This document shows, one piece after another, positions 9,938-24,398 of a DNA stretch of 24,996 nucleotides; within the stretch, counting starts at the first letter, position 1; every line of letters starts with the position of its first letter. Made by a program: the position numbers and the translations under genes. Source of the stretch: a virus. Where the stretch lies: the IMG/VR virus record IMGVR_UViG_3300042507_004479, positions 1 through 24,996 of that record, one strand, 5' to 3'. The notes under the pieces were generated by a model. It saw nothing but the letters and a program-made list of their open reading frames with translations. It made no database searches and was not told where the DNA came from.

Positions 9938-10738
9938 TTATGCTGCTTTCACTTTTGCCCAGTTGGGCAGGGTTATGGTCTCGACCTCGCGGCTGTAGGC
10001 CGGCCAGGTCTTGAAATCGGAACAGGTGGAATGGAGAGCGAGGAGCGCCTGCCGCTCGTTCTCCGCGAGGATCAGGTCCGCGGCGTCCAGCTCGTAGCAG
10101 GCGACGGCGTGCGGCGCGGACTTCTCGACGGCAACGAACACGAAGCGCAGATCGCCGAGGCCGACAGCCTTCGCCATGGCCCGATAGTGCGCGGCCTGGA
10201 GGTTGTACTTGTAGTTGGCCAAGCTGCGGGCAAAGCCGGCGGGACTCGCGTCCTCGGTCGTCTTCAAGTCCACGATGGCCGTCTCGGTCAGGTAGTCGTA
10301 TCGGGCTTTACAATACGCTCCGCGTTCGTCGTTGGCGAACAGCGAAACCTCTGCGGCGCCGCCGGTCAGGAGTTTCGCCGCCGCCGGGTGGGCGCGTACC
10401 GCGTGCCGCATGGCCAGCAGTTGCTCCCGCTCGTCGTGGGTTATGATCTCCTTGCCGACGTTGGCGCCCTGGAACTGCTCCCAGATCGACTTCCCCTCCT
10501 TGGTGCGCCGGTCCACGATGGGAGCGACGACGACGTCACGGTCGAAGCGGTCAGGCTCGATGACGCAGATGTGGCCGAGCATGCCGAGCCGCAGGGCCGG
10601 CGTCTGCTCGTCAGGATTGTCCAGCCAGTGGGCGTAGTGAGCCGGGGTGACGGCCAGCTTCTTCAAGCCGGACGCAGACAGTGCGCGGATGGCGTGGTAC
10701 TCTGCCGCCGGCAGGTTGTGGTGGATGCCGAGTTTCAT
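9938..10738 (-). CDS. RecE-like PD-(D/E)XK exonuclease
   Basis: A 266-aa exonuclease expected to resect double-stranded ends and load RecT on the resulting single strand. The N terminus (LPAAEYHAIRALSASGLKKL) and LGMLGH with H56 are typical of the exodeoxyribonuclease VIII C-terminal family. The catalytic core reads E130 (AAEVSLF), RYDYL with D148, and IVDLKTT with D157 and K159, followed by the Q181/Y185 helix (YNLQAAHYR) that shapes the active site in this fold. It is the length of the RecE catalytic domain alone, without the long N-terminal part of E. coli RecE. The start at 10738 overlaps the upstream stop (ATGA). RecT is encoded one gene upstream, giving a complete RecET-like pair. Confidence 0.88.
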   Translation of the reverse strand: MKLGIHHNLPAAEYHAIRALSASGLKKLAVTPAHYAHWLDNPDEQTPALRLGMLGHICVIEPDRFDRDVVVAPIVDRRTKEGKSIWEQFQGANVGKEIITHDEREQLLAMRHAVRAHPAAAKLLTGGAAEVSLFANDERGAYCKARYDYLTETAIVDLKTTEDASPAGFARSLANYKYNLQAAHYRAMAKAVGLGDLRFVFVAVEKSAPHAVACYELDAADLILAENERQALLALHSTCSDFKTWPAYSREVETITLPNWAKVKAA

Positions 10739-11004
10739 CGTTCGGAATCCTTCTTGCGAATGGCTAGCATCCCATCGGCATACTCATAGGCCCTACGCGC
10801 GATGGTTTCTGGATGGGTTGTGCTGTAATTAGAGACGTCAGCTTCGTACGCCCTGCGATAGACCGCACACAGAGCCGCCGCCGCGAAGTAGTCGCGCAGC
10901 GTCATGCCTCCGATACTGTGAACAGCCCAACTCTGCGCGTCGCTGTCCCATAAACGCTGCGCGTGCGGAAATGCTGGCCCGCCGTCGTTGATGGGTGCGC
11001 TCAC
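10735..11004 (-). CDS. Conserved phage hypothetical protein ('GGPAFP...GMTLRDYFAA' type)
   Basis: An 89-aa protein starting at GTG 11004, overlapping the recT stop (GTGA), with GGAGG about ten bases upstream. It carries INDGGPAFP near the N terminus, GMTLRDYFAAAAL in the middle and a helical ARRAYEYADGMLAIRKK tail. This three-part pattern is very common in small proteins of tailed phages, usually near recombination or replication genes, and no function is established. Its place between recT and the exonuclease may mean a regulatory or accessory role, but that is a guess. Confidence 0.8.
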   Translation of the reverse strand: MSAPINDGGPAFPHAQRLWDSDAQSWAVHSIGGMTLRDYFAAAALCAVYRRAYEADVSNYSTTHPETIARRAYEYADGMLAIRKKDSER

Positions 11005-11786
11005 TTGTTGATCGCCTCCACGAATGGCTTGGGGTTCTGCATGATCTTCGCCGCCAGCGCCGCCGGCATGTCGCGGAAGTTCTGGCCCTCGCTGATGTGA
11101 CCCTTCGCGAGTAGGTAGGCGTTCGCCTTCTCCGCGTGCGGCTCCAGCAGCGCCTCGAGTTTCGAGAGATCTGCGGTCGGGGTTTCGCTGGTGACGACGG
11201 TCGGCGTGACGTTAACCGGCGCGGCGCTCGGCGTAGCGTTGTCCTGGATCTCCTCTGGCGTGTAGACGCCGAACACCACCTCGGGGGCGAGGAGCCGCAC
11301 CGCTTCACTGATCACGCGCGCGGTCAGCATCTGGCGCGGGAACTTGCGCCAGTTGTCTTTCAGCTTGCCGTCACGTCCCACCGCAACGCCGTTCTGCACG
11401 AACGACTCAATCGTGGCGGAAAAAGGCAGCGAGTTGCCGCGGAGCGTGAACGTCGCCTCGACTGCTTTGTCGTCGCGGCGAGTCCACTTTACCGTGCCGC
11501 CGGACATCTGGAACTTCGCCAGCATGGCGTCGGCGCGCATGGAGAGCTTGCCCTCGATGACGTGGTAAGTCTTGGCCAGCTCAAGCGGGGCTTTGCGCTC
11601 GGTCATGCACTGGAGGGCCAGCACCTGTCCTTGCTCGACCTTGGTGCAGCCGAACATGCCAGAGCTGGCGATGATCTCGCCCAGGCGTTCGACGGCGTGG
11701 AGCGGATCGGTCATCCGCGTGTAGGCGTCACCCTCGGCGGGTGCGGCGAGGGCGAACGATGCGCCCGTAGTTATTGTATTATTCAT
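11001..11786 (-). CDS. recT: RecT-family single-strand annealing protein
   Basis: A 261-aa recombinase that would coat resected single strands and anneal them to complementary DNA. The RecT signature is clear: WRKFPRQMLTARVISEAVR (about 146-164) followed by PEVVFGVYTPEEI (168-180). Upstream, KAPLELAKTYHVIEGKLSMR and LAKFQMSGGTVKW are typical of the phage RecT/Orf48-like core. After residue 185 comes a Pro/Thr-rich linker and a short helical C terminus. No ribosome site is evident before ATG 11786. A terminator-like hairpin lies just upstream, so recT may have its own promoter or be reached by readthrough. With the neighbouring exonuclease and SSB-like protein it forms a recombination module. 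Confidence 0.85.
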   Translation of the reverse strand: MNNTITTGASFALAAPAEGDAYTRMTDPLHAVERLGEIIASSGMFGCTKVEQGQVLALQCMTERKAPLELAKTYHVIEGKLSMRADAMLAKFQMSGGTVKWTRRDDKAVEATFTLRGNSLPFSATIESFVQNGVAVGRDGKLKDNWRKFPRQMLTARVISEAVRLLAPEVVFGVYTPEEIQDNATPSAAPVNVTPTVVTSETPTADLSKLEALLEPHAEKANAYLLAKGHISEGQNFRDMPAALAAKIMQNPKPFVEAINK

Positions 11787-11832
11787 GGGACGAAAAAATT
11801 TCGTGGTGCTAATCTGCCCACGGTGTCATGGG

Positions 11833-11870
11833 AAAAGGGGCCGGCGTCCTGCCTAGCGGGGGCCGGCCCC
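11833..11870 (-). terminator. Intrinsic terminator-like hairpin after the RuvC-like gene
   Basis: On the minus transcript, GGGGCCGGC (from 11870) pairs perfectly over nine bases with GCCGGCCCC (ending 11837), around a 16-base loop, and is followed at once by UUUU. It starts two bases after the TAA of the RuvC-like gene. The U tract is short, so termination may be partial. It separates the small early genes from recT and the rest of the operon. Confidence 0.65.
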
Positions 11871-11872
11871 AC

Positions 11873-12325
11873 TTATTTTCCGCGGGCGAAATCCAAAATC
11901 AGCAGGGCGTCCGCGGTCTTGAGCGTCACGTCGAGCGTCGGGAAACGGCGCACCGCTTCCGTCTTGAGCTTGTTCTTCCACTCGGTCGTGGAGGCGCACT
12001 CGCGCTTGGTCCCAAGCCGGAAGTGTTTTTGCCAATCGTGCGGCTTCACCAGGATGACGCGCAGGCCCAGCGCCGTGGCCGCGCCTTCGATGTAGCCAAA
12101 ATTCTTGAAGAGGACGGCGGTGGTGCTCGACGGGATGGCCCGCCCCACGAACTTCGGGACGTCCTCGATCCAGATCTCCGCGGAGGTGGATCCGACGACA
12201 AGCGAGCGCAGAAGATCGATGGCGTCAGTGATCGCCGCCGGCATGGCGCAGCAACCCAGCTCTCCCCCCTTGGCCCACGCGATGCCGCCGCCGGCGCCGG
12301 GATCGACTGCGATGATCAGACGCAC
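11873..12325 (-). CDS. RuvC-like Holliday junction resolvase (RNase H fold)
   Basis: A 150-aa enzyme expected to cut Holliday junctions or branched phage DNA before packaging. The RNase H-fold acidic residues fit: D8 in IIAVDPGAGGGIA, E54 in IWIEDVP, and D139 plus D145 in TADALLILD at the C terminus. GYIEGAATALGLRV and VKPHDWQKHF match the pattern of phage RuvC-type proteins. Its length is slightly below cellular RuvC (about 170 aa). GTG 12325 is supported by GGAGGG four bases upstream and overlaps the previous gene by ten bases. A terminator-like hairpin follows the stop. Confidence 0.85.
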   Translation of the reverse strand: MRLIIAVDPGAGGGIAWAKGGELGCCAMPAAITDAIDLLRSLVVGSTSAEIWIEDVPKFVGRAIPSSTTAVLFKNFGYIEGAATALGLRVILVKPHDWQKHFRLGTKRECASTTEWKNKLKTEAVRRFPTLDVTLKTADALLILDFARGK

Positions 12326-15719: not shown

Positions 15720-16147
15720 TTGCGCGAGTAGCGTGATCCGAACCACCAAAACAGCGCCGTGAAACTCCCGAACGTGATCTGGTCGGCCATGGTGGCCTGC
15801 ACGGCGGGATCGCTGCGCAGGAAGACGACGAGCAGTACGACGAGCAGGAGCCACGTCAGCGCAGGCCGCGTGAACGAGCGGAAGCAATCGACCAGCTCGC
15901 CCAGGTTGATCACCCACCCGCTCGCCTTGTCGGAGACCGTGACGTCCTCGTTGACGTTCTCTTGAGATTTCCCGAACGCGGCCCAGCTCAGTTCTTCCAC
16001 CTTAATGCGGGCCATGGCTTCCATCCGCATGATCTCGACCTTGGCCTCCTCGCGCTTGGCGTAGACCTCAAACCAGCGGGTGCCGAGATTGAGGATCCCG
16101 CCGAAAATGCCGCCGCCCGCGGCGTTGAAGAGTAGGTCCAAGATCAT
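15716..16147 (-). CDS. Holin-like membrane protein
   Basis: A 143-aa protein. The N terminus (LLFNAAGGGIFGGILNL) is a glycine-rich hydrophobic helix, residues 28-55 form a charged helix (VYAKREEAKVEIMRMEAM), residues 94-110 are a strong transmembrane helix (ALTWLLLVVLLVVFL) and 126-138 a possible second one (FGSFTALFWWFG). This Gly-rich head, charged helix and C-terminal membrane pair recurs in phage proteins annotated as holins or holin-associated proteins; holins permeabilise the inner membrane at lysis. No endolysin is seen nearby, so the role is inferred. The start overlaps the stop of the 1932-aa gene (ATGA). Confidence 0.65.
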   Translation of the reverse strand: MILDLLFNAAGGGIFGGILNLGTRWFEVYAKREEAKVEIMRMEAMARIKVEELSWAAFGKSQENVNEDVTVSDKASGWVINLGELVDCFRSFTRPALTWLLLVVLLVVFLRSDPAVQATMADQITFGSFTALFWWFGSRYSRK

Positions 16148-19100
16148 AGTCGTTTGGCGATGAGTCGTTCCGCTTCCTCGAGGGACTTGGCGACGGCGAT
16201 TAGCTCGCCCACTGGGCTGAACACGCGGAACTTGCCGCCGTTCTTGTTGACGACGGTGTAGCCGAAATCGGCGCGGTAGACGGTGCCGTTCGGCATCGCT
16301 TCGGGTTGGAAGTTGATCTTGGGGGCGCCGCCATCGAGCGACGTGCGCACGTTCGCCGGCACGCGGATCCTGCCGTCCTTTAGCTCGGCGCCGGCCCGCT
16401 GGAGGAGTGCCTTGTACAAGCCGCCCATCGGATCAAGCGGATCCAGGGCGCGGTTGAGCATGTAGTCAGTGGTGTCGGTCGCCTCCTGCTTTGCGACGCG
16501 GAGGTCGTTGAGCGCGGCCTCGCGGAACTCCGCGATGCGCTCCCGCTCGGTCATGTCCTCCCAGAGCTTCTTGCCTTCGCCTCGGCGCAGCTCGCGGTCC
16601 ATTCCGCGCGTGCCGCCGCTGCGATAGCCTGCCGCCTTGGAACCGTACTGCGCCAGGGCATCACGCCAGACCGGACCTCCCATGTCTGCGACGACGGATT
16701 CCATCCCCGCGAGACCGTTGCCGGAGTCCGGCATGAAGTTGACTGACTTGGGACGCTGCACCGATGCGACAAAAATGTCGTCTGGGTTTTTAGCTACAAA
16801 GAGTTTTTTCCCGGCGATCTCCTGGACTGTCGGGTCTTTGAGATACGCTTCGACCACAACTGGGTTGGCCGGTTGGTTTATCGCCCTTGATGCAGCTCTG
16901 AGCCTTTCGCCAAGGTCACGCGGAATCTTTTCGGCAATCTCGTCAAAGTAGCTCGCCAACTCACTGATGTCATCGACGTGCCGAGAGTTGAACTCAGGAA
17001 CGTCGTCGATGGTTGTGAACCCATCCACCTTTAGCCCTTTTTCGATTCGTTGCGCCAGTTCGCGCATGACCTTGTTGGCTGAATCCACCGCAGCTTGTGA
17101 CGAATCCACGCCGCCACGCGCATAGGAATTTGCAGCGTTAAAATCGTCGGTGAAAGAAAATCCTCCCCTCGAAATGCCGGTGTTGCGGGCGCGAAGTTCT
17201 GGATCGAACTTATCGCCCTTGAAATCTGGTGAACCGTGGTAGAAAGGCCCAGCAAGCCCTCTCGCTTTGGCTTGGTCGGGCGTAATGTTCACGGGAATAC
17301 CGTACTGCGTGTCCGGCATGAAGTACGCCAACGAAGACGGCGACTCCACTTCTGCCCTCTTCCACTTCTTGCCGGGTTTCGGAGTCGACATGTAGCCGGC
17401 CACCTTGTTCGCAGCGTAGGCTTGAGCGAGTTGGCGGTCGTTCAGCGCAGGGAGTTTTTCTAGACCAGGGAACATCGCCTCATGGGGTTCCACGCGCTGG
17501 CGAATCCGGTCCCACAAGGTCCACTGAGCCGGGAAGACCGCGACCCCAAGTTCCTCCGCTCGCTTTTGATTGATCTCCAGAGCCGAACGATATGCCTCCG
17601 ACATCACTTGGAAGTCATTCGGCGTCTCAATCCATTCCACTGCCTTGATGTGTTCCGGCGCGTTCGGGTTGATGTCACCCTTCGCCGTGATGAGTTTGGC
17701 CTTCCTGCTGCCCATTGCGGCAAACACGGCTTCGTTGACGAACTCGCGCACCCGGTCGGCGCCAAATATCTCGGCCTGACCCAACACGTCGTCCAGAGTT
17801 TTGGCTTTGACCGCAGTTGGGTCGGGCAGCTTTGCCAGATCCTTGTCACGTTCCTTGATCAGCTTTTCGCGCGATTTGGTCTCAGTGGCTCGCGCGATCT
17901 TCTTCTCGTAACTGACTGCGGTCTTTTTCGCCTCCTTGATGAGCGCGTTGAAGCGGTCGACGACGATACCCTCGAAACGCGAACGGAGGTCTTTGTCGCC
18001 CAGAAGTTCCTGTCCGAACGTGCGGGCCATGTGCCGGTCCATGGCTGATATCGATGCGTTGAGCGGATCCTGCCAGACGGATCCAAAAGATCCCGTCTTG
18101 GTGCCGAATCCACTGACCTGAGTCGTCAGCTTGTCGACAAAGTTGGCCCACGATTCGCCCGGTTGCTTCACGAAGAAATCGGGATTCTTCACAAACATCC
18201 GCGCCGCGTTCACGATGTTAGAGAGGTCCGCGGTGATCGGAATGCCCAGACCGCCCTTGCCGGCGGCGATGAAGCCCAGCTCTTTCTTCAGTTGTTCGTT
18301 TAGCTTAACCAGATTCTCCTTGGTCGGGTTCTCTGGGTAGAGCTTCGCAAAACGTCGGATCTCATCCATGGACCCAAAGCGCATGCGAGCCTGACCAATT
18401 TCGTTGGGAAGAAGCGGTGCGTTCGGGGAGAGCATCCCGAACACAATCGAATTGAAACTGGAGATCTGGTCACCCGGCGCCGGCTCCATCGTTCGGGCCA
18501 GTTTCGCCGTGAGCTGCGCGTGAGTTTTCTCCGGCAGCGTCTTTACGTCGACTGGGTTGGCTTTGAGCCAGAGGAGGTCGTAGTAGGTGAACTTTCCGTC
18601 CAAGCCTCCCGGCAGTCGCGCATAAGATCCAGGTAACTCCGTGGCGATTTCCCTGACTGGAGATAGAGGGCCAAGGTTGTCGACACCGAACGCTTTGCCG
18701 TAGTCCGCAAAGTCTTCTGGAGTCCAGTCTTTCGGCTCTTTGCCGCGGAATGTGATGTTGCCTTTTTCATCGCGGGTAACTCCGTTCGGTTCGCTCAAGT
18801 TACGCCGCGGCAAAGCTTCTGCAACTTGATTCGATTGCTCGTCAGCGGGCTTGAAATTGACCTTTTGCGCCTTGGCCGACGCCTCTGCTGCGTTACTGTA
18901 AATGCCGACGCGCTCGCCGTTGGGGTCGAAAAGGCTGAATCGGTTTTTCCGTTCGATGATACGAAAGCCCTCGTCGGACTGGTACACTTTGCCGTGGGGG
19001 AGCACTTCCGCTGGCTTGAAGTTGACCTGGGAGAGCTTGTACGAGCCTGACTCGTTGAACGGAAAGTTCTGCTTCAGATCGACCAGCTTGCCAAGTCGGT

Positions 19101-21942
19101 CGAGCCGCATGGTGCTTACCACACGGGTGTCCTTGGAGTCCTGATACGCCGGTTTGCCAATCTGCTGCTTGCCAGTGCCGGATTCGGAGCGGGTATTGAT
19201 GCCGAGCGACGAGATGTTCCGAATCTCACCGCCCTGCAATTGCGCCTTGGTGGGAGCGAATCCGTAGATCTTGTTGAAGATGTCCCGCTTGATCGGGCCG
19301 AACAATTCCGCGCTGGGTTTGGCGACGCCATCGCCGAGCGAAAGATTTCGCGAGTAGTCGATCAGTTCCGTCCACGCTGCGTCTTTGTTGCCGCCCCACC
19401 GTTCCAGAACGCCAGGTCGAGACATGACGTCATCGAACCGGGAGCGCAGTTGGGTGACGTCGAGAAACTCGATGGCCACGGCGCCTTTCTGGGTCGTGCG
19501 AATCTTGTGAACGACGATGTCGCGGTTGGTCGAACCCCGGCTTGCGTAAAGCGTGCCCTCGCCGGCCTTCTTGGTCGCCGGGAAATAGGTGCTGTTGATG
19601 ATGTTCCCCGACTTCTGCGCCTCGTTCAAAAAAACGAGCTTGTTGAAGTGCTCCGGCGCGAGGTGCTTGTTGTAGACGGCCAGTTCGGCATCAGTGACGT
19701 TGTTTACGCCACGCGGCACGCTGGCCAACTCCTCCGCGCTGCGTTGGTACGCGGCATCGCGGGCCACGTTCACCTGCTCTTCGGTGCGCACGCCGATCAC
19801 GTCGCCCGTGGCCGCGTCGCGCAACAGGACATCGCCCTGGCCCTCGTCGTTGGCCCAGTCGACAAGTGCAGGCGTTGGCATCCGAGCCAAAGGAACCTCG
19901 GCGAGCGGCCTGCCGTTCTTGGCGATTGCTTTGTTGATGTCGGTGCGAGCGACAATCAGTTCGCGGGCAAGTGCGTCGAGCGCGGGATGGCCAGTGTTCG
20001 CCTTGTAGCCATCGACGCCCATGCGGCGCAGGACAAAGTCGATGCCTCCTTTGAGTTTTCCAATGACGGCGCCATCCGACGTGCGTTCGCCGCGGAGCAG
20101 CAGATCGCGGTTTTCCCGGCGTTGCAGAAACTCGCGGAAATACTCGGCGCCCATCTCCTCGACCAAGTTGTTACCATCGTTGAGATAGTCGCGCAGTTCC
20201 TGCTTGGCCGGTTCGGTGCGCCCGCGGTTGACGTAGTCGTCGTAGAATTTCGCCTTCTGCGCAGGCGTGAACGTCGAGTCGACTCCGTCGAAGATCCGTT
20301 TCCCGATGGTTTCGCCCAGCGCGGTACGCATGGCGCCGTGGAACGATTCGTGGAAGCCGGTCCCAGGCTTCACCGCATCGACGTTAAAGATGATCGAAGG
20401 CTTTGCGCCTTTGCCTGCTGGAACAACTGTAACGCCCTCAAAAGCGACGCCTCGAGCCTCGGGCATAGCCTTGGCTTCCGCGTCATTGACGAAACGAAAC
20501 TCGACGTCGCCACTGAGCCAATTGCGAACGTCGACAATCTCCGCAACGGCTTCGTGATGGCCATCACGCGCCATCCGGTCGAAGAGCGCGGCGGCATTCG
20601 CTCGAGTTGGCGCATCCATCGTGGCCGTAGAGCGAACAGCGTCGTTGAGGATGCGTTGCTGGCGCACATAGCCCTTCCCGTGCATGTAGGCGCGACCGGC
20701 AACACCACCAGCGGCGCCGAGCGTCAAACCCGCGCCGATGCCACCGGCGGCACCGTCCTCGCCGTCTGCCATGTAGCCAAGCAGACCGCCAACGACGGCA
20801 CCTTCCGCAACACCGCGAGTCGCCGCCGCCAGGTACGGTGCGACGACGTCCGCGCCGGCCACTGATCCGATGCGTCCGATGGTGCGTGCCGCAGTCGATG
20901 CGGAGAGATCCTTGGCCAGCCCTTCAAATACTCCAATGCGTCCTTCGCCCTTGGCAGCGTGCTCGGCCACCTTCTCCATAAGTTCGCCGGCGAGCGACAA
21001 GCTACGTCCAGCGAGTTTGGTCCCGGCGATTGCGGTCGCAGTGGTACTGAGGCCGGGAACGGTGAGTCCCAAACCGAGCTGGCCGGCGGCGAGTCCGGTC
21101 GTTCCTCGGGTGACCGCCTGCTCAACTCGTTGAGCCACGTCGGCGTTGCCGGTGATCGCTTCCGCCGTGCTGGCGGCGATCCGTTGCGGGATGCTCGCGA
21201 CTTCGGTGGTCAACTCACCAGCACCGCGAATGGCTCGGCCAGTGGCCTGCGCTGCGCGCGCAGTTGCCGCACCGATCTTTCCGCCAACGCCGAGCATTTC
21301 CATGCCCGCTGCGATTGGGAGCGGAGGCTGAATCAAGAAGCTGCCCGCCTCTGCGGCGTTCGGCATCGATGACTGCGCGAGGATGTTTTTGCGCTGCTCC
21401 TGCCAATTTTGAAGGGAGCGGAAGTTGTTCAGCTCGTCATCGACGACCTTCTCGTACTGCGCCTTGGTATCAGGCGAGTCCTTGAGTTTGCGCGTCGAGA
21501 GGAATTTCTCGTAGCTGTTGTTGTCCGCGTCGTAATTTTCCAGCGCGCTCAAAAACAGGCTGGAGAAGTCACCGTAGCCCACCAGCGCGGCTTGGCCCAC
21601 GTTGGCCACAAGGGAATTTGCCTTCTCAAGCGGACCTGCGCCCTGCTGAAACTCAGGTGGCGTGGTGAATGCCTTGCCAACGACGTCGCCAATTCCCGCC
21701 ACGCCTGCGGCGACCTTTGATCCAAAAGAGACTGGATTGTCCTCCTTGTATTTGCGCATGAGCAGGAACTCATCCCGCGTCATGTCTTTCGCGTAGGCCG
21801 GATTCTCGGCCAGGCGCTCAGTGATCATCTGGCCGTCCACGGGAAACTCCAGTTCGACGGCCTTGTCGATGTCCTCGTCAGAAGTGCCGTCTGGAAACGT
21901 GAGTATGCCCCGCCCTGGAACCGTAACGCGAATTTCGGCCAT
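16144..21942 (-). CDS. Giant polyvalent virion-type protein (metallopeptidase motif, ADP-ribosyltransferase-like domain)
   Basis: A 1932-aa multidomain protein, about a quarter of the window. The N terminus (VTVPGRGILTFPDGTSDEDI) is a short beta domain common at the start of phage internal proteins. Residues about 100-440 are helical with Gly/Ala-rich, membrane-like stretches. HESFH at 531-535 is an HExxH zinc-peptidase motif. Residues about 1090-1300 are a helical domain. FYHGSP with H1569, then GGFSFTDDFNAANSYARGG, matches the ADP-ribosyltransferase-type domain of polyvalent proteins. NFxP-type linkers occur near 973, 1027, 1539, 1733 and 1875, and a 50-residue domain occurs twice (about 977-1025 and 1878-1932). 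Polyvalent proteins are described by Aravind and colleagues as factors delivered with phage or conjugative DNA to modify host targets. It lies in the virion block next to a probable internal protein, so co-ejection is likely. Which activities work is unknown. Confidence 0.8.
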   Translation of the reverse strand: MAEIRVTVPGRGILTFPDGTSDEDIDKAVELEFPVDGQMITERLAENPAYAKDMTRDEFLLMRKYKEDNPVSFGSKVAAGVAGIGDVVGKAFTTPPEFQQGAGPLEKANSLVANVGQAALVGYGDFSSLFLSALENYDADNNSYEKFLSTRKLKDSPDTKAQYEKVVDDELNNFRSLQNWQEQRKNILAQSSMPNAAEAGSFLIQPPLPIAAGMEMLGVGGKIGAATARAAQATGRAIRGAGELTTEVASIPQRIAASTAEAITGNADVAQRVEQAVTRGTTGLAAGQLGLGLTVPGLSTTATAIAGTKLAGRSLSLAGELMEKVAEHAAKGEGRIGVFEGLAKDLSASTAARTIGRIGSVAGADVVAPYLAAATRGVAEGAVVGGLLGYMADGEDGAAGGIGAGLTLGAAGGVAGRAYMHGKGYVRQQRILNDAVRSTATMDAPTRANAAALFDRMARDGHHEAVAEIVDVRNWLSGDVEFRFVNDAEAKAMPEARGVAFEGVTVVPAGKGAKPSIIFNVDAVKPGTGFHESFHGAMRTALGETIGKRIFDGVDSTFTPAQKAKFYDDYVNRGRTEPAKQELRDYLNDGNNLVEEMGAEYFREFLQRRENRDLLLRGERTSDGAVIGKLKGGIDFVLRRMGVDGYKANTGHPALDALARELIVARTDINKAIAKNGRPLAEVPLARMPTPALVDWANDEGQGDVLLRDAATGDVIGVRTEEQVNVARDAAYQRSAEELASVPRGVNNVTDAELAVYNKHLAPEHFNKLVFLNEAQKSGNIINSTYFPATKKAGEGTLYASRGSTNRDIVVHKIRTTQKGAVAIEFLDVTQLRSRFDDVMSRPGVLERWGGNKDAAWTELIDYSRNLSLGDGVAKPSAELFGPIKRDIFNKIYGFAPTKAQLQGGEIRNISSLGINTRSESGTGKQQIGKPAYQDSKDTRVVSTMRLDRLGKLVDLKQNFPFNESGSYKLSQVNFKPAEVLPHGKVYQSDEGFRIIERKNRFSLFDPNGERVGIYSNAAEASAKAQKVNFKPADEQSNQVAEALPRRNLSEPNGVTRDEKGNITFRGKEPKDWTPEDFADYGKAFGVDNLGPLSPVREIATELPGSYARLPGGLDGKFTYYDLLWLKANPVDVKTLPEKTHAQLTAKLARTMEPAPGDQISSFNSIVFGMLSPNAPLLPNEIGQARMRFGSMDEIRRFAKLYPENPTKENLVKLNEQLKKELGFIAAGKGGLGIPITADLSNIVNAARMFVKNPDFFVKQPGESWANFVDKLTTQVSGFGTKTGSFGSVWQDPLNASISAMDRHMARTFGQELLGDKDLRSRFEGIVVDRFNALIKEAKKTAVSYEKKIARATETKSREKLIKERDKDLAKLPDPTAVKAKTLDDVLGQAEIFGADRVREFVNEAVFAAMGSRKAKLITAKGDINPNAPEHIKAVEWIETPNDFQVMSEAYRSALEINQKRAEELGVAVFPAQWTLWDRIRQRVEPHEAMFPGLEKLPALNDRQLAQAYAANKVAGYMSTPKPGKKWKRAEVESPSSLAYFMPDTQYGIPVNITPDQAKARGLAGPFYHGSPDFKGDKFDPELRARNTGISRGGFSFTDDFNAANSYARGGVDSSQAAVDSANKVMRELAQRIEKGLKVDGFTTIDDVPEFNSRHVDDISELASYFDEIAEKIPRDLGERLRAASRAINQPANPVVVEAYLKDPTVQEIAGKKLFVAKNPDDIFVASVQRPKSVNFMPDSGNGLAGMESVVADMGGPVWRDALAQYGSKAAGYRSGGTRGMDRELRRGEGKKLWEDMTERERIAEFREAALNDLRVAKQEATDTTDYMLNRALDPLDPMGGLYKALLQRAGAELKDGRIRVPANVRTSLDGGAPKINFQPEAMPNGTVYRADFGYTVVNKNGGKFRVFSPVGELIAVAKSLEEAERLIAKRL

Positions 21943-21947
21943 GGTGA

Positions 21948-23228
21948 TTATTTCAAACGCTGCTTTTGATAAGTAACTCCGTTGGGTAGTTTCTTCGTCT
22001 CGACCTCGTTTGTTTTTTTCTCCTCCGGCGAAACGTACCGTGCGCTGGCGATGTATCTTTCGGCGTCTGGTCCGATGGTGGCTACCATTGCTTTCGTTTC
22101 TTGAGCGCGCATTTCAGCTTTTTGCGCTATAACCTCGGCCCCGTCTCCAGGTTGCGGGAAGTACTGTTCGTCCCACTCTTTATACTCGGTCGGAGTGATG
22201 GTTGCTCCTGACTGCCTACGCAACGAAGCGGCGATCCAGTTTTTCTTCGCAGCGTTGTAAGCTTTCAATTCTTGATCCTTGAAACGCTCCGGCGTCCACG
22301 AACCGTTGAACAACGCGGTTGTGTCGTATTGATTCTTTTTCATTAAGTCTTCGTTCTGCATGAGACGCAGAGAGAAACTTAGTGAATTGCTTTGAGCGTC
22401 GGTCAGCGCCTTGGCGCCAGCGCCTTCCGCGGCCTTTTTTACCTCACCGTCGATCATCGACTGAATCGAGGCGGCGTCTTTTTGATTATTGGCGAGCAGC
22501 GCAGCGTCGCGGTCGGCCATCAGCTTGCCGAGCGGAGACTCTGGCGTCATTGGCTGCGCCGGTCGTTGATCAGGCAATACGTCAAACTTGCCGGGACCAG
22601 TTTCCACAATGTCAACCTTGCGACCGTTGCCACCTTCGAGGGTCTGCATCTTGGGCGCGCCGAACTGAATGTTCTTGATCATCGACAGGGACGGGGCGAG
22701 GGCCGAGTCCTGTAGGCTTCCGCCTCCACTGATGAACGTCTTCAGTGCTGCTCCGATGTCGACGTTACCGTCAGTGTCAGTGTTCATCGTCAGCGACGTG
22801 TTCAGCAGTTCGTCGCTTTTTCTTTTCCTGGCAGAATCAGCCAGCATCTCGCGCACTCGCTGGTTCTCGAGCTTTGCGCGCTCTTCCTCGATGCCCTTCT
22901 GCTTAATCAGCATGTTGGTCGAGATTTCGCCCATCAGCGATTTGTGTTCATCCAGCGTGGCCTTACCGAGTTTGAATTTCTCGATCATCTTGGGGTCCAG
23001 TGATTCCGCCAAGGTTGGGTCAGATTTGAGAAACTGACCGATTTGCGGGCCAAGCACCTGGCGCTGCTTTTCGTTTTCAGAATACTGCTTAATGGCGCCC
23101 GCAATCGTGTTGCCGATAGACTCGATCCCAGCGGCCTGATTCTTGGCCATCTGAGCAGCGGTCTCCATGTAGCCGCTCGGGAGCGGGCTGATGTACGGGA
23201 CGTTGTTGAAGTATGGGCCTTGTCTCAT
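21948..23228 (-). CDS. Probable internal virion protein
   Basis: A 426-aa mostly helical protein. It begins MRQGPYFNNVPYISPLP, then has long charged helices (about 25-135, including IEEERAKLENQRVREML). The second half carries SNSLSFSLRLMQNEDLM, FKDQELKAYNAAKKNWIAA and RRQSGATITPTEYKEWDEQY followed by FPQPGDG. The LRRQSGATI...E...YFP..GD pattern recurs in phage internal or ejected proteins next to very large polyvalent proteins. It probably sits in the capsid or ejection channel. It starts by ATGA overlap with the SET gene and ends five bases before the 1932-aa gene, so the two are expected to be made together. The assignment is from pattern and neighbours. Confidence 0.7.
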   Translation of the reverse strand: MRQGPYFNNVPYISPLPSGYMETAAQMAKNQAAGIESIGNTIAGAIKQYSENEKQRQVLGPQIGQFLKSDPTLAESLDPKMIEKFKLGKATLDEHKSLMGEISTNMLIKQKGIEEERAKLENQRVREMLADSARKRKSDELLNTSLTMNTDTDGNVDIGAALKTFISGGGSLQDSALAPSLSMIKNIQFGAPKMQTLEGGNGRKVDIVETGPGKFDVLPDQRPAQPMTPESPLGKLMADRDAALLANNQKDAASIQSMIDGEVKKAAEGAGAKALTDAQSNSLSFSLRLMQNEDLMKKNQYDTTALFNGSWTPERFKDQELKAYNAAKKNWIAASLRRQSGATITPTEYKEWDEQYFPQPGDGAEVIAQKAEMRAQETKAMVATIGPDAERYIASARYVSPEEKKTNEVETKKLPNGVTYQKQRLK

Positions 23229-23608
23229 TGTGTGATGGCGTTGAAGCCCAGCTTGCGGGCGGCGTCCGCATCGGACGTGAACGTGATGGTGAGTTCTTCG
23301 CCGGCGGCGATGTGACGGGCGGCGACGATCTCGGCCTCACCATTGGTGATGATGTCGCTTTCGCGGCAATTCGGTTCGCTCGAGAAATTCCAGTAGCGGC
23401 TATCGTCTCCGCAGATGACGAGCCACGCCGGGTTGGCGGGGTAGACGTACCCGTAGTGCTTGAGGACGTCGTCGGCCTCGCTCAACGGGATGCGCCGGTC
23501 AGGCGGCATGAAGCGCCACACGGTTTCTCCTGGGCGAATGTCGCGCCCAGCGTGCAGACCCAGACCGTGGATCTTGGATGCGGAAACGTATGCCTCAATT
23601 GTCGTCAC
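23225..23608 (-). CDS. Small SET-domain protein
   Basis: A 127-aa protein with the three parts of a SET lysine-methyltransferase domain: IHGLGLHAGRDIRPGE (about 13-28) as the opening motif, WNFSSEPNC (73-81) in place of the NHSCxPN pseudoknot motif, and GEAEIVAARHIAAGEELTITF (in two pieces around 90-110) ending in the GEELTxxF closing motif. Known members bind SAM and methylate protein lysines. The NHS motif is altered to NFS, which may lower activity. GTG 23608 overlaps the upstream PAPS-reductase-family gene by 14 bases; no ATG fits. Its place among virion genes suggests a virion or host protein as substrate, but this is inference. Confidence 0.75.
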   Translation of the reverse strand: MTTIEAYVSASKIHGLGLHAGRDIRPGETVWRFMPPDRRIPLSEADDVLKHYGYVYPANPAWLVICGDDSRYWNFSSEPNCRESDIITNGEAEIVAARHIAAGEELTITFTSDADAARKLGFNAITQ

Positions 23609-24398
23609 CGTAGTAATCGAATTGCGGTTCGCTGTAGGGTACTTTGTCGGCCACGCAGGATACCTCGTATCCGAGCTTTGGACACATGACGCTTTTCGCT
23701 TGGCTGCGCTTGTCGCAGCAGGCGATGCACACGTTGGCGTAGTCGCTATTCGTCCACTTGTCGGTTTTCTCGCAGCGGTTGGCGACGTCGTATCGGTCCT
23801 CCTGCTGCGGCACGCCGTGCTTTGACGTATAGTCCCAGACGTCCTCATCGGTCCAATAGCGCAGAGGAAATGCAGCGTCGGGTGCCATGCCTTGGTTGTT
23901 CTTCACATCGACGTGAAGTGGAACGGCGCCGGCGATCTGGTCCTTGTCGCTCGACTTGTGGCCGATCAGCACCAGGTCGAACGGGTAATTGAAAGTGCCG
24001 GTGGGACGGTTCAACACGTCCTTGATGCCGCAGAGGAACTTCCGATTGGGTTCCGGCGGCAGGATGTTCTTCGGCATTTGCAGGTACGAAGACGGCGTAG
24101 GACCAATCTGGTAGTGATTGGTGAACGCCATGATCTCCTTCCCTTCCCAGAGCGTGACGAAGGAGGGAGCGTAGTCATGCACCTCGAGTTCCCACTCGGC
24201 GATCATACGGTCAGCGAACGTGTACTTCTGGGGCCACCAAGGATCGCGGTGGAAGACCACTGGCAGATGGATACCGGCGGTGCGCAGGATATGCAGCAGC
24301 ACCATGGAGTCCTTGCCGAACGAACACATGATCGCGGGGCGCCGGTAGGCTTCCAGCGTCTTGCGCACGAACGAGAGCGTGTCTGCGACCTTAGCCAT
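23595..24398 (-). CDS. PAPS reductase-family protein (PP-loop ATPase)
   Basis: A 267-aa PP-loop enzyme. SFGKDS at 26-31 is the nucleotide-binding loop (the family norm is SGGKDS). LVLIGHKSSDKDQ and LRYWTDEDVWDYTSKHGVP are characteristic of PAPS/APS reductase and DndC-like proteins. Cysteines C123, C209, C224, C227, C228, C239 and C248 could hold an iron-sulfur cluster as in DndC and APS reductases. Phage members are common and their role is unclear: sulfate assimilation, tRNA or DNA thiolation, or another adenylation. No dndA/B/D/E partners are in view, so phosphorothioation cannot be claimed. The start overlaps the upstream stop (TAATG). Confidence 0.82.
   Translation of the reverse strand: MAKVADTLSFVRKTLEAYRRPAIMCSFGKDSMVLLHILRTAGIHLPVVFHRDPWWPQKYTFADRMIAEWELEVHDYAPSFVTLWEGKEIMAFTNHYQIGPTPSSYLQMPKNILPPEPNRKFLCGIKDVLNRPTGTFNYPFDLVLIGHKSSDKDQIAGAVPLHVDVKNNQGMAPDAAFPLRYWTDEDVWDYTSKHGVPQQEDRYDVANRCEKTDKWTNSDYANVCIACCDKRSQAKSVMCPKLGYEVSCVADKVPYSEPQFDYYGDDN

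Follow-up and report, generated by a model that had tools for sequence, protein, structure and literature searches.

A predicted OGG-like DNA glycosylase core and an exchangeable effector slot in a candidate co-ejected polyvalent protein from an uncultured virus record

Introduction

Phage polyvalent proteins are large multidomain chains, and the concept, together with the peptidases and ADP-ribosyltransferases (ARTs) that such chains carry, has already been published (Iyer et al., 2017, PMC5512222). Here we describe P0001, a candidate protein of this kind encoded by IMG/VR virus record IMGVR_UViG_3300042507_004479; the window, by which we mean the whole stretch of DNA analysed, is the complete record of 24,996 bases and gave no match among phage records in a DNA-level search. 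An earlier note, made from the letters of the window, had claimed a polyvalent protein of 1932 amino acids at this locus and had not stated its strand. The open reading frame (ORF) was confirmed and lies on the minus strand with an ATG start, and its motifs are found at the positions claimed, with HESFH at residues 531–535, FYHGS at 1567, GFSFTDDFNAANSYA at 1594 and RGSTNRDIVV at 802. The frame and its motifs are not due to chance.

P0001 resembles the polyvalent proteins described in PMC5512222 in being a large multidomain chain with a zincin-type HExxH, with ART-like and PBECR modules and with a virion gene neighbourhood, and it differs from them in having a constant glycosylase-like core and a slot of exchangeable content with a repeated joint motif at its borders. 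The word 'glycosylase' has 0 occurrences in the main text of PMC5512222, and no glycosylase within a polyvalent or ejected protein was found in the literature searched; we therefore regard P0001 as a new addition to the polyvalent kind. The concept itself is known, and what is new here is the glycosylase-like domain family at the centre of the chain. With moderate confidence we read P0001 as a co-ejected polyvalent protein in which the constant core is an OGG-like HhH-GPD glycosylase that would repair the incoming phage DNA, accompanied by an exchangeable effector slot.

A conserved core family in uncultured phages

A first scan of viral contigs returned 7 IMG/VR relatives of P0001, with 42–80% identity in the best segment. 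When these were aligned, the best conserved part proved to be residues ~1040–1547, which is neither the peptidase nor the ART; the tail at 1874–1931 was also conserved, and the stretch between core and tail was variable. Three further scans with core alignments gave overlapping sets of 39, at least 79 and at least 78 loci. The core was near full length in 182 of the 196 ORF hits, which collapse to at least 70 distinct core sequences (44 representatives at 93% identity), and the source of these was nearly always an uncultured phage. A single run of the genome_contigs scan yielded one locus, on a 4.3-kb contig of a Verrucomicrobiota metagenome-assembled genome. Several lineages carry the core within an open frame of just 487–800 amino acids, and the one clear relative in BFVD (Foldseek E 1e-23, 27% identity) is A0A6J5LUD9, an uncharacterised protein of an uncultured Caudovirales phage that has the same fold and belongs to the same family, differing in being 614 amino acids long and unannotated. 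As a separate observation, one loop of the L044 core (10019–11851) is broken by ~120 amino acids that include an ART-like stretch of the form YHR...GYG, which looks like cargo placed within the enzyme.

The core is predicted to adopt an OGG-like fold

The earlier note had left the centre of the protein unnamed, and its helical area at residues 1090–1300 can now be placed in the middle of a predicted OGG-like HhH-GPD domain, while the area around RGSTNRDIVV (~740–970) is still without a name. The prediction comes from an AF2 model of the homologous domain of locus L078 (44 sequences; pLDDT 91.2, pTM 0.88), which has the HhH-GPD fold with the B/C-domain arrangement of OGG. In VIA comparisons this model matched SsOgg (3fhg) with Z 12.5 and 195 residues aligned (target 207) at 3.1 Å, followed by MjOgg (3fhf/3knt, Z 12.2 and 12.0), TmOgg (3n0u, 11.7) and human and mouse OGG1 (~9–10), and among the matches listed 50/50 were OGG proteins. 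The top Foldseek rows for the same model were hOGG1, MjOgg and endonuclease III, at E 0.09 or worse.

K1282 and D1302, which match the catalytic lysine and aspartate by position, Q1473 and W1477, which match the base-reading glutamine and aromatic residue, and H1487 are kept in 70/70 distinct sequences. The helix-hairpin-helix signature of the window protein is GFGTKT (1278–1283), followed by D1302 in AMDRHM, and the spacing from lysine to aspartate is 20 residues in the window, 18 in L078 and 18 in E. coli Nth, where we take K120 and D138 to have the catalytic roles. The hOGG1 rows of the VIA alignment end at model residue 390, which is chain residue 325, and from these end points L078 Q380/W384 (window Q1473/W1477) would fall on hOGG1 Gln315/Phe319 if the last helix is ungapped. 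AQQYLF occurs in CacOGG1 and in another solved OGG1-like protein, and the window has AQWTLW at the same place. According to PMC3397491, Gln315/Phe319 is the base-reading pair of hOGG1, which also has Lys249/Asp268, and the OGG2 pair is Asp194/Trp198.

The core shares features with both OGG1 and OGG2. Like OGG1 it has, by position, a Gln-x3-aromatic pair, together with the lysine and the aspartate and some N-terminal beta structure ahead of the helical core; it differs in that Pfam OGG_N and HhH-GPD gave no match (OGG_N in none of the 44 members) and in that the A-domain aligned only in part, the structural overlap starting from model residue 16. Like OGG2 it has the predicted fold over 192–198 aligned residues, the lysine and aspartate, and an aromatic residue near the C-terminal end. 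Unlike OGG2, it shows no detectable sequence similarity, carries an extra N-terminal beta domain, runs beyond the position of the C-terminal lysine into an invariant PHE motif, at the His of which the OGG alignment ends, and is fused into a giant virion-type protein. The core is not assigned to the OGG2 subfamily. Its OGG-like identity is predicted from the fold and from residue positions, because sequence profiles did not detect the relationship.

An exchangeable slot bounded by joint motifs

What lies C-terminal to the core varies among relatives of P0001: the module there may be of the ART, RNase-like, methyltransferase or GNAT type, or may be missing altogether. A short [FY]MP motif forms the junction, and a conserved tail of ~50 amino acids comes last. 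In Pfam searches the slot contained ART-PolyVal in L006 (E 2e-14) and L007 (E 2e-7), PBECR5 in L008 (E 2e-22) and Methyltransf_23 in L002 (E 3e-6), with sub-threshold GNAT matches in L030 and L020. Only the tail follows the core in L004, and ART-PolyVal is located before the core in L033. A common unnamed slot module with the pattern IYRA/VFRA ... W[VI]T ... SYA was also seen in L003 (~aa 1140–1275) and L047 (~aa 1108–1250).

The only Pfam match of the corresponding stretch in P0001 was ART-PolyVal at E 0.029, covering 41 of 140 profile positions, and its score of 15.6 bits misses the gathering cut-off of 31.2. The module matches the same-slot module of L047 by BLAST (E 4e-12). H1569 and Y1607 were placed by motif, and the third catalytic residue, which is Asp in the H-Y-D scheme as given in PMC5512222, is not evident. 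The ART-like part proposed earlier is thus supported weakly, by the Pfam match and the link to L047, with the score below the cut-off and the third residue counting against it. The polyvalent concept is supported in part: the multidomain chain with its HExxH region, OGG-like core and ART-like module, which are unrelated domains, the metallopeptidase motif, the virion-gene setting and the ART-PolyVal, PBECR5 and methyltransferase modules in the C-terminal slot of relatives all fit it, and the same two shortcomings of the ART-like module of P0001 itself do not.

The window protein has one copy of the ~50-residue tail before the core and one at its C-terminus. The motifs at the module boundaries are of the [FY]MP type in the window lineage and of the [FY]S[KR]K type in L033, L041 and L044. 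Homology breakpoints fell within 15 amino acids of a joint in 62 of 146 cases (16.5 on average at random and never more than 33 in 2000 draws). In a reduced set of 10 proteins, after homologous breakpoints had been merged, 21 of 98 fell within 10 amino acids (4.5 on average at random and never more than 13 in 5000 draws), both counts leaving aside lineages that lack [FY]MP. The strict joint motif occurred 70 times in 20 proteins, where shuffling gave 2.8 on average; the 20 proteins used for the joint-motif tests were picked from motif-carrying lineages, and 11 of them form one closely related group that weighs heavily. There is a real chance, although we rather doubt it, that the [FY]MP joints do not serve in processing or docking of the protein and are plain linkers or hot spots of DNA recombination, as the clustering of breakpoints at the joints is what a common short sequence would also produce. 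However, in the other lineage [FY]S[KR]K takes the place of [FY]MP (in L033, VYFSKK after the core and VNFSKK before the ART), so that the position of the joints in the protein is kept while their letters change together.

Proposed role of P0001 and alternatives

In the reading that we favour, P0001 would be a modular virion protein that is expressed along with the late genes, is taken up into the head and enters the cell together with the DNA. The core (residues 1050–1545) is predicted to represent a previously undescribed clade of OGG-like HhH-GPD DNA glycosylases. Inside the cell the glycosylase would flip out and excise an oxidised or modified purine, the likeliest substrate being damage of the 8-oxoguanine type gathered by the phage genome in the unrepaired particle, and the base-excision repair of the host would then take over at that site. 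The slot that follows may bring in exchangeable effectors, ART-like in this case, between lineage-specific joints of the [FY]MP type; these joints may be cleavage sites of the zincin domain or docking sites for a packaging partner, and the conserved ~50-residue tail may be a packaging tag. A precedent for such a tag is the capsid localisation signal reported for P1 DarB (PMC9024508). More tentatively, and with rather less confidence than for P0001 itself, we propose that an OGG-like DNA glycosylase is injected by the clade of uncultured phages that encodes it, either to begin base-excision repair with an enzyme brought in the virion or as a base-excision weapon. It would be the constant hub of a giant protein with swappable effector cassettes, at the boundaries of which there is a lineage-specific processing or docking motif.

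If this is true, a DNA glycosylase packed in the virion would mean that some phages bring base excision along without depending on the host, or use it for an early attack, and either role would be a new activity among injected phage proteins. The joint motif and tail domain would also offer handles on the assembly, exchange and perhaps cutting or packaging of giant ejected proteins. The family is readily testable, as the L078-type domain is ~450 amino acids long and has a confident model and a clear residue pair for mutation.

A number of results weigh against the OGG assignment. An AF2 model built from 25 sequences for the domain of P0001 itself reached a pLDDT of 80.5 and was low at the HhH, and it found only unrelated, mostly helical proteins and no OGG match. 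For the L078 model there was no Foldseek PDB row at E 0.001 or better, and its best Z of 12.5 is under the caution line of ~13 that the aligner sets for helical bundles. Searching the PDB by hmmsearch with core alignments A2 and A7 gave 0 matches at E up to 10; no Pfam family matched more than 2 of the 44 core members, and PHROGs gave only scattered weak matches, in at most 4 of 44, and no family name. With hhalign, comparison of core alignment A3 with five HhH-GPD proteins aligned lysine with lysine and aspartate with aspartate (P 0.02), but in a ranking against 95 single proteins Nth came 3rd at P 0.036, with MutY, AlkA and four other HhH-GPD proteins 16th or lower. A 20-sequence OGG1 profile scored 17.6, which is no better than 60 column-shuffled controls, with their mean of 16.3 and top score of 23.0. 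The 8-oxoG-sensing C-terminal lysine of OGG2 is missing from the core, because the chain continues past that position. Finally, the core family was absent from an annotated phage collection of 50,697 records, from which near records may be omitted, in seven tblastn queries, one with complete P0001 at E 1e-5 and six with proteins or cores of relatives at E 0.01, and the positive controls succeeded. A search for the OGG2 family across 40 genomes, run only to gather sequences, found none.

An alternative explanation, which we judge unlikely, is that the glycosylase is a weapon that excises bases from host DNA or from the modified DNA of a competitor, leaving abasic sites and breaks, beside the ART-like cargo. 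Base-excision restriction has a precedent (as reported in PMC4357717), the core is accompanied by effector-type modules (ART, PBECR5), and its C-terminal base pocket is unlike that of OGG2. However, the core is far better conserved than the cargo, whereas the parts involved in an arms race usually vary, and no modified-base pathway was evident in the window except for a cytosine methyltransferase. Because the core is constant while the host-directed cargo varies, we prefer the view that the glycosylase would serve the phage's own DNA. It is somewhat less probable again that the OGG-like fold has lost catalysis and is retained only to bind DNA, as a tether to the packaged or incoming genome; the HhH hairpin contacts the DNA backbone without sequence preference (described in PMC3397491) and P0001 is probably packed together with DNA, but the lysine and aspartate at the catalytic positions and the base-reading pair, which mere binding does not need, are invariant in all 70. 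Least probable is that the helical match is a look-alike and the region a virion scaffold of unknown fold, since, for all the silence at the sequence level, the poor Foldseek E-values and the failure of the window's own model, the VIA rows listed name one enzyme family, the best target is nearly fully covered and the invariant residues land on OGG active-site positions.

Other regions of P0001

Table 1. Features of P0001 and of the adjacent genes; all coordinates are those of the window.
Feature	Residues	Coordinates	Strand	Basis or remarks
P0001, polyvalent protein (1932 aa; span includes stop codon)		16144..21942	minus	ORF with ATG start; relatives
Gly/Ala-rich, glycine-zipper-like hydrophobic stretch	~366–424	20671..20847	minus	read directly from sequence
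Zincin-like metallopeptidase region	505–640	20023..20430	minus	HESFH (531–535) at 20338–20352; E600 at 20143–20145
Unnamed conserved region	~740–970	19033..19725	minus	aligned in relatives; contains RGSTNRDIVV (802)
Joint motif VNFKP	973–977	19012..19026	minus	
First copy of ~50-aa tail domain	984–1027	18862..18993	minus	BLAST to second copy, E 2e-9 (two-sequence comparison)
Joint motif VNFKP	1028–1032	18847..18861	minus	
Predicted OGG-like HhH-GPD DNA glycosylase domain	1050–1545	17308..18795	minus	AF2 model of homologous L078 domain; invariant residues
Core key residue	K1282	18097–18099	minus	
Core key residue	D1302	18037–18039	minus	
Core key residue	Q1473	17524–17526	minus	
Core key residue	W1477	17512–17514	minus	
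Joint motif AYFMP	1539–1543	17314..17328	minus	homology among relatives breaks here
ART-like cargo module (H1569, Y1607)	1556–1733	16744..17277	minus	sub-threshold Pfam match; BLAST to L047
Joint motif VNFMP	1734–1738	16729..16743	minus	
Second slot segment, unnamed	1739–1875	16318..16728	minus	no family matched (Pfam, PHROGs)
Joint motif INFQP	1876–1880	16303..16317	minus	
C-terminal ~50-aa tail domain	1882–1931	16150..16299	minus	BLAST: at C-terminus of relatives whatever cargo precedes
426-aa gene directly upstream of P0001		21948..23228	minus	in L006 (46% over 425 aa) and other loci a relative directly precedes the polyvalent gene
143-aa holin-like gene directly downstream of P0001		15716..16147	minus	GTA_holin_3TM, E 0.042, below cut-off

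The remaining features of P0001 are listed with the others in Table 1. The metallopeptidase motif claimed at residues 531–535 was borne out, since HExxH is present in 7/7 sequences that cover the region, the window included (HESFH twice, HEGFH, HEAFH, HEMFH, HELFH and HESMH), as is a downstream glutamate, which is E600 of 'GAEYF' in the window. The region gave no Pfam match, and its zincin-like identity is at the level of the motif. The RGSTNRDIVV region matched neither Pfam nor PHROGs. Stretches resembling the glycine-zipper-like segment were also seen in L006, L007 and L008, and this segment may have a role in ejection.

Gene neighbourhood

The order in which the 426-aa gene, the polyvalent gene and the holin-like gene follow one another is repeated by relatives in several loci, and relatives of the holin-like gene lie directly downstream in L002, L003 and L004. 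From its position, the 426-aa gene possibly encodes an ejection or internal virion protein. In L097 the core protein lies between the portal and the scaffold/major head protein, and in L090 it comes after a DNA ejection protein; such a late, virion gene setting is that expected for an ejected virion protein. The capsid protein of the L097 contig (13381–14352) is related to those of cultured phages, among them Sinorhizobium phage phiM5 and pelagiphage HTVC106P, which belong to the annotated collection where the core itself was not found.

Just upstream of the ejection-type genes of the window are a PAPS-reductase-like gene (23595–24398, Pfam E 3e-10) and a SET-domain gene (23225–23848, E 1e-10). 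Among the 19 window genes compared, the one with relatives in the most loci (41, each of any overlapping loci being counted) lies at 11873–12325 and was labelled RuvC-like on visual inspection.

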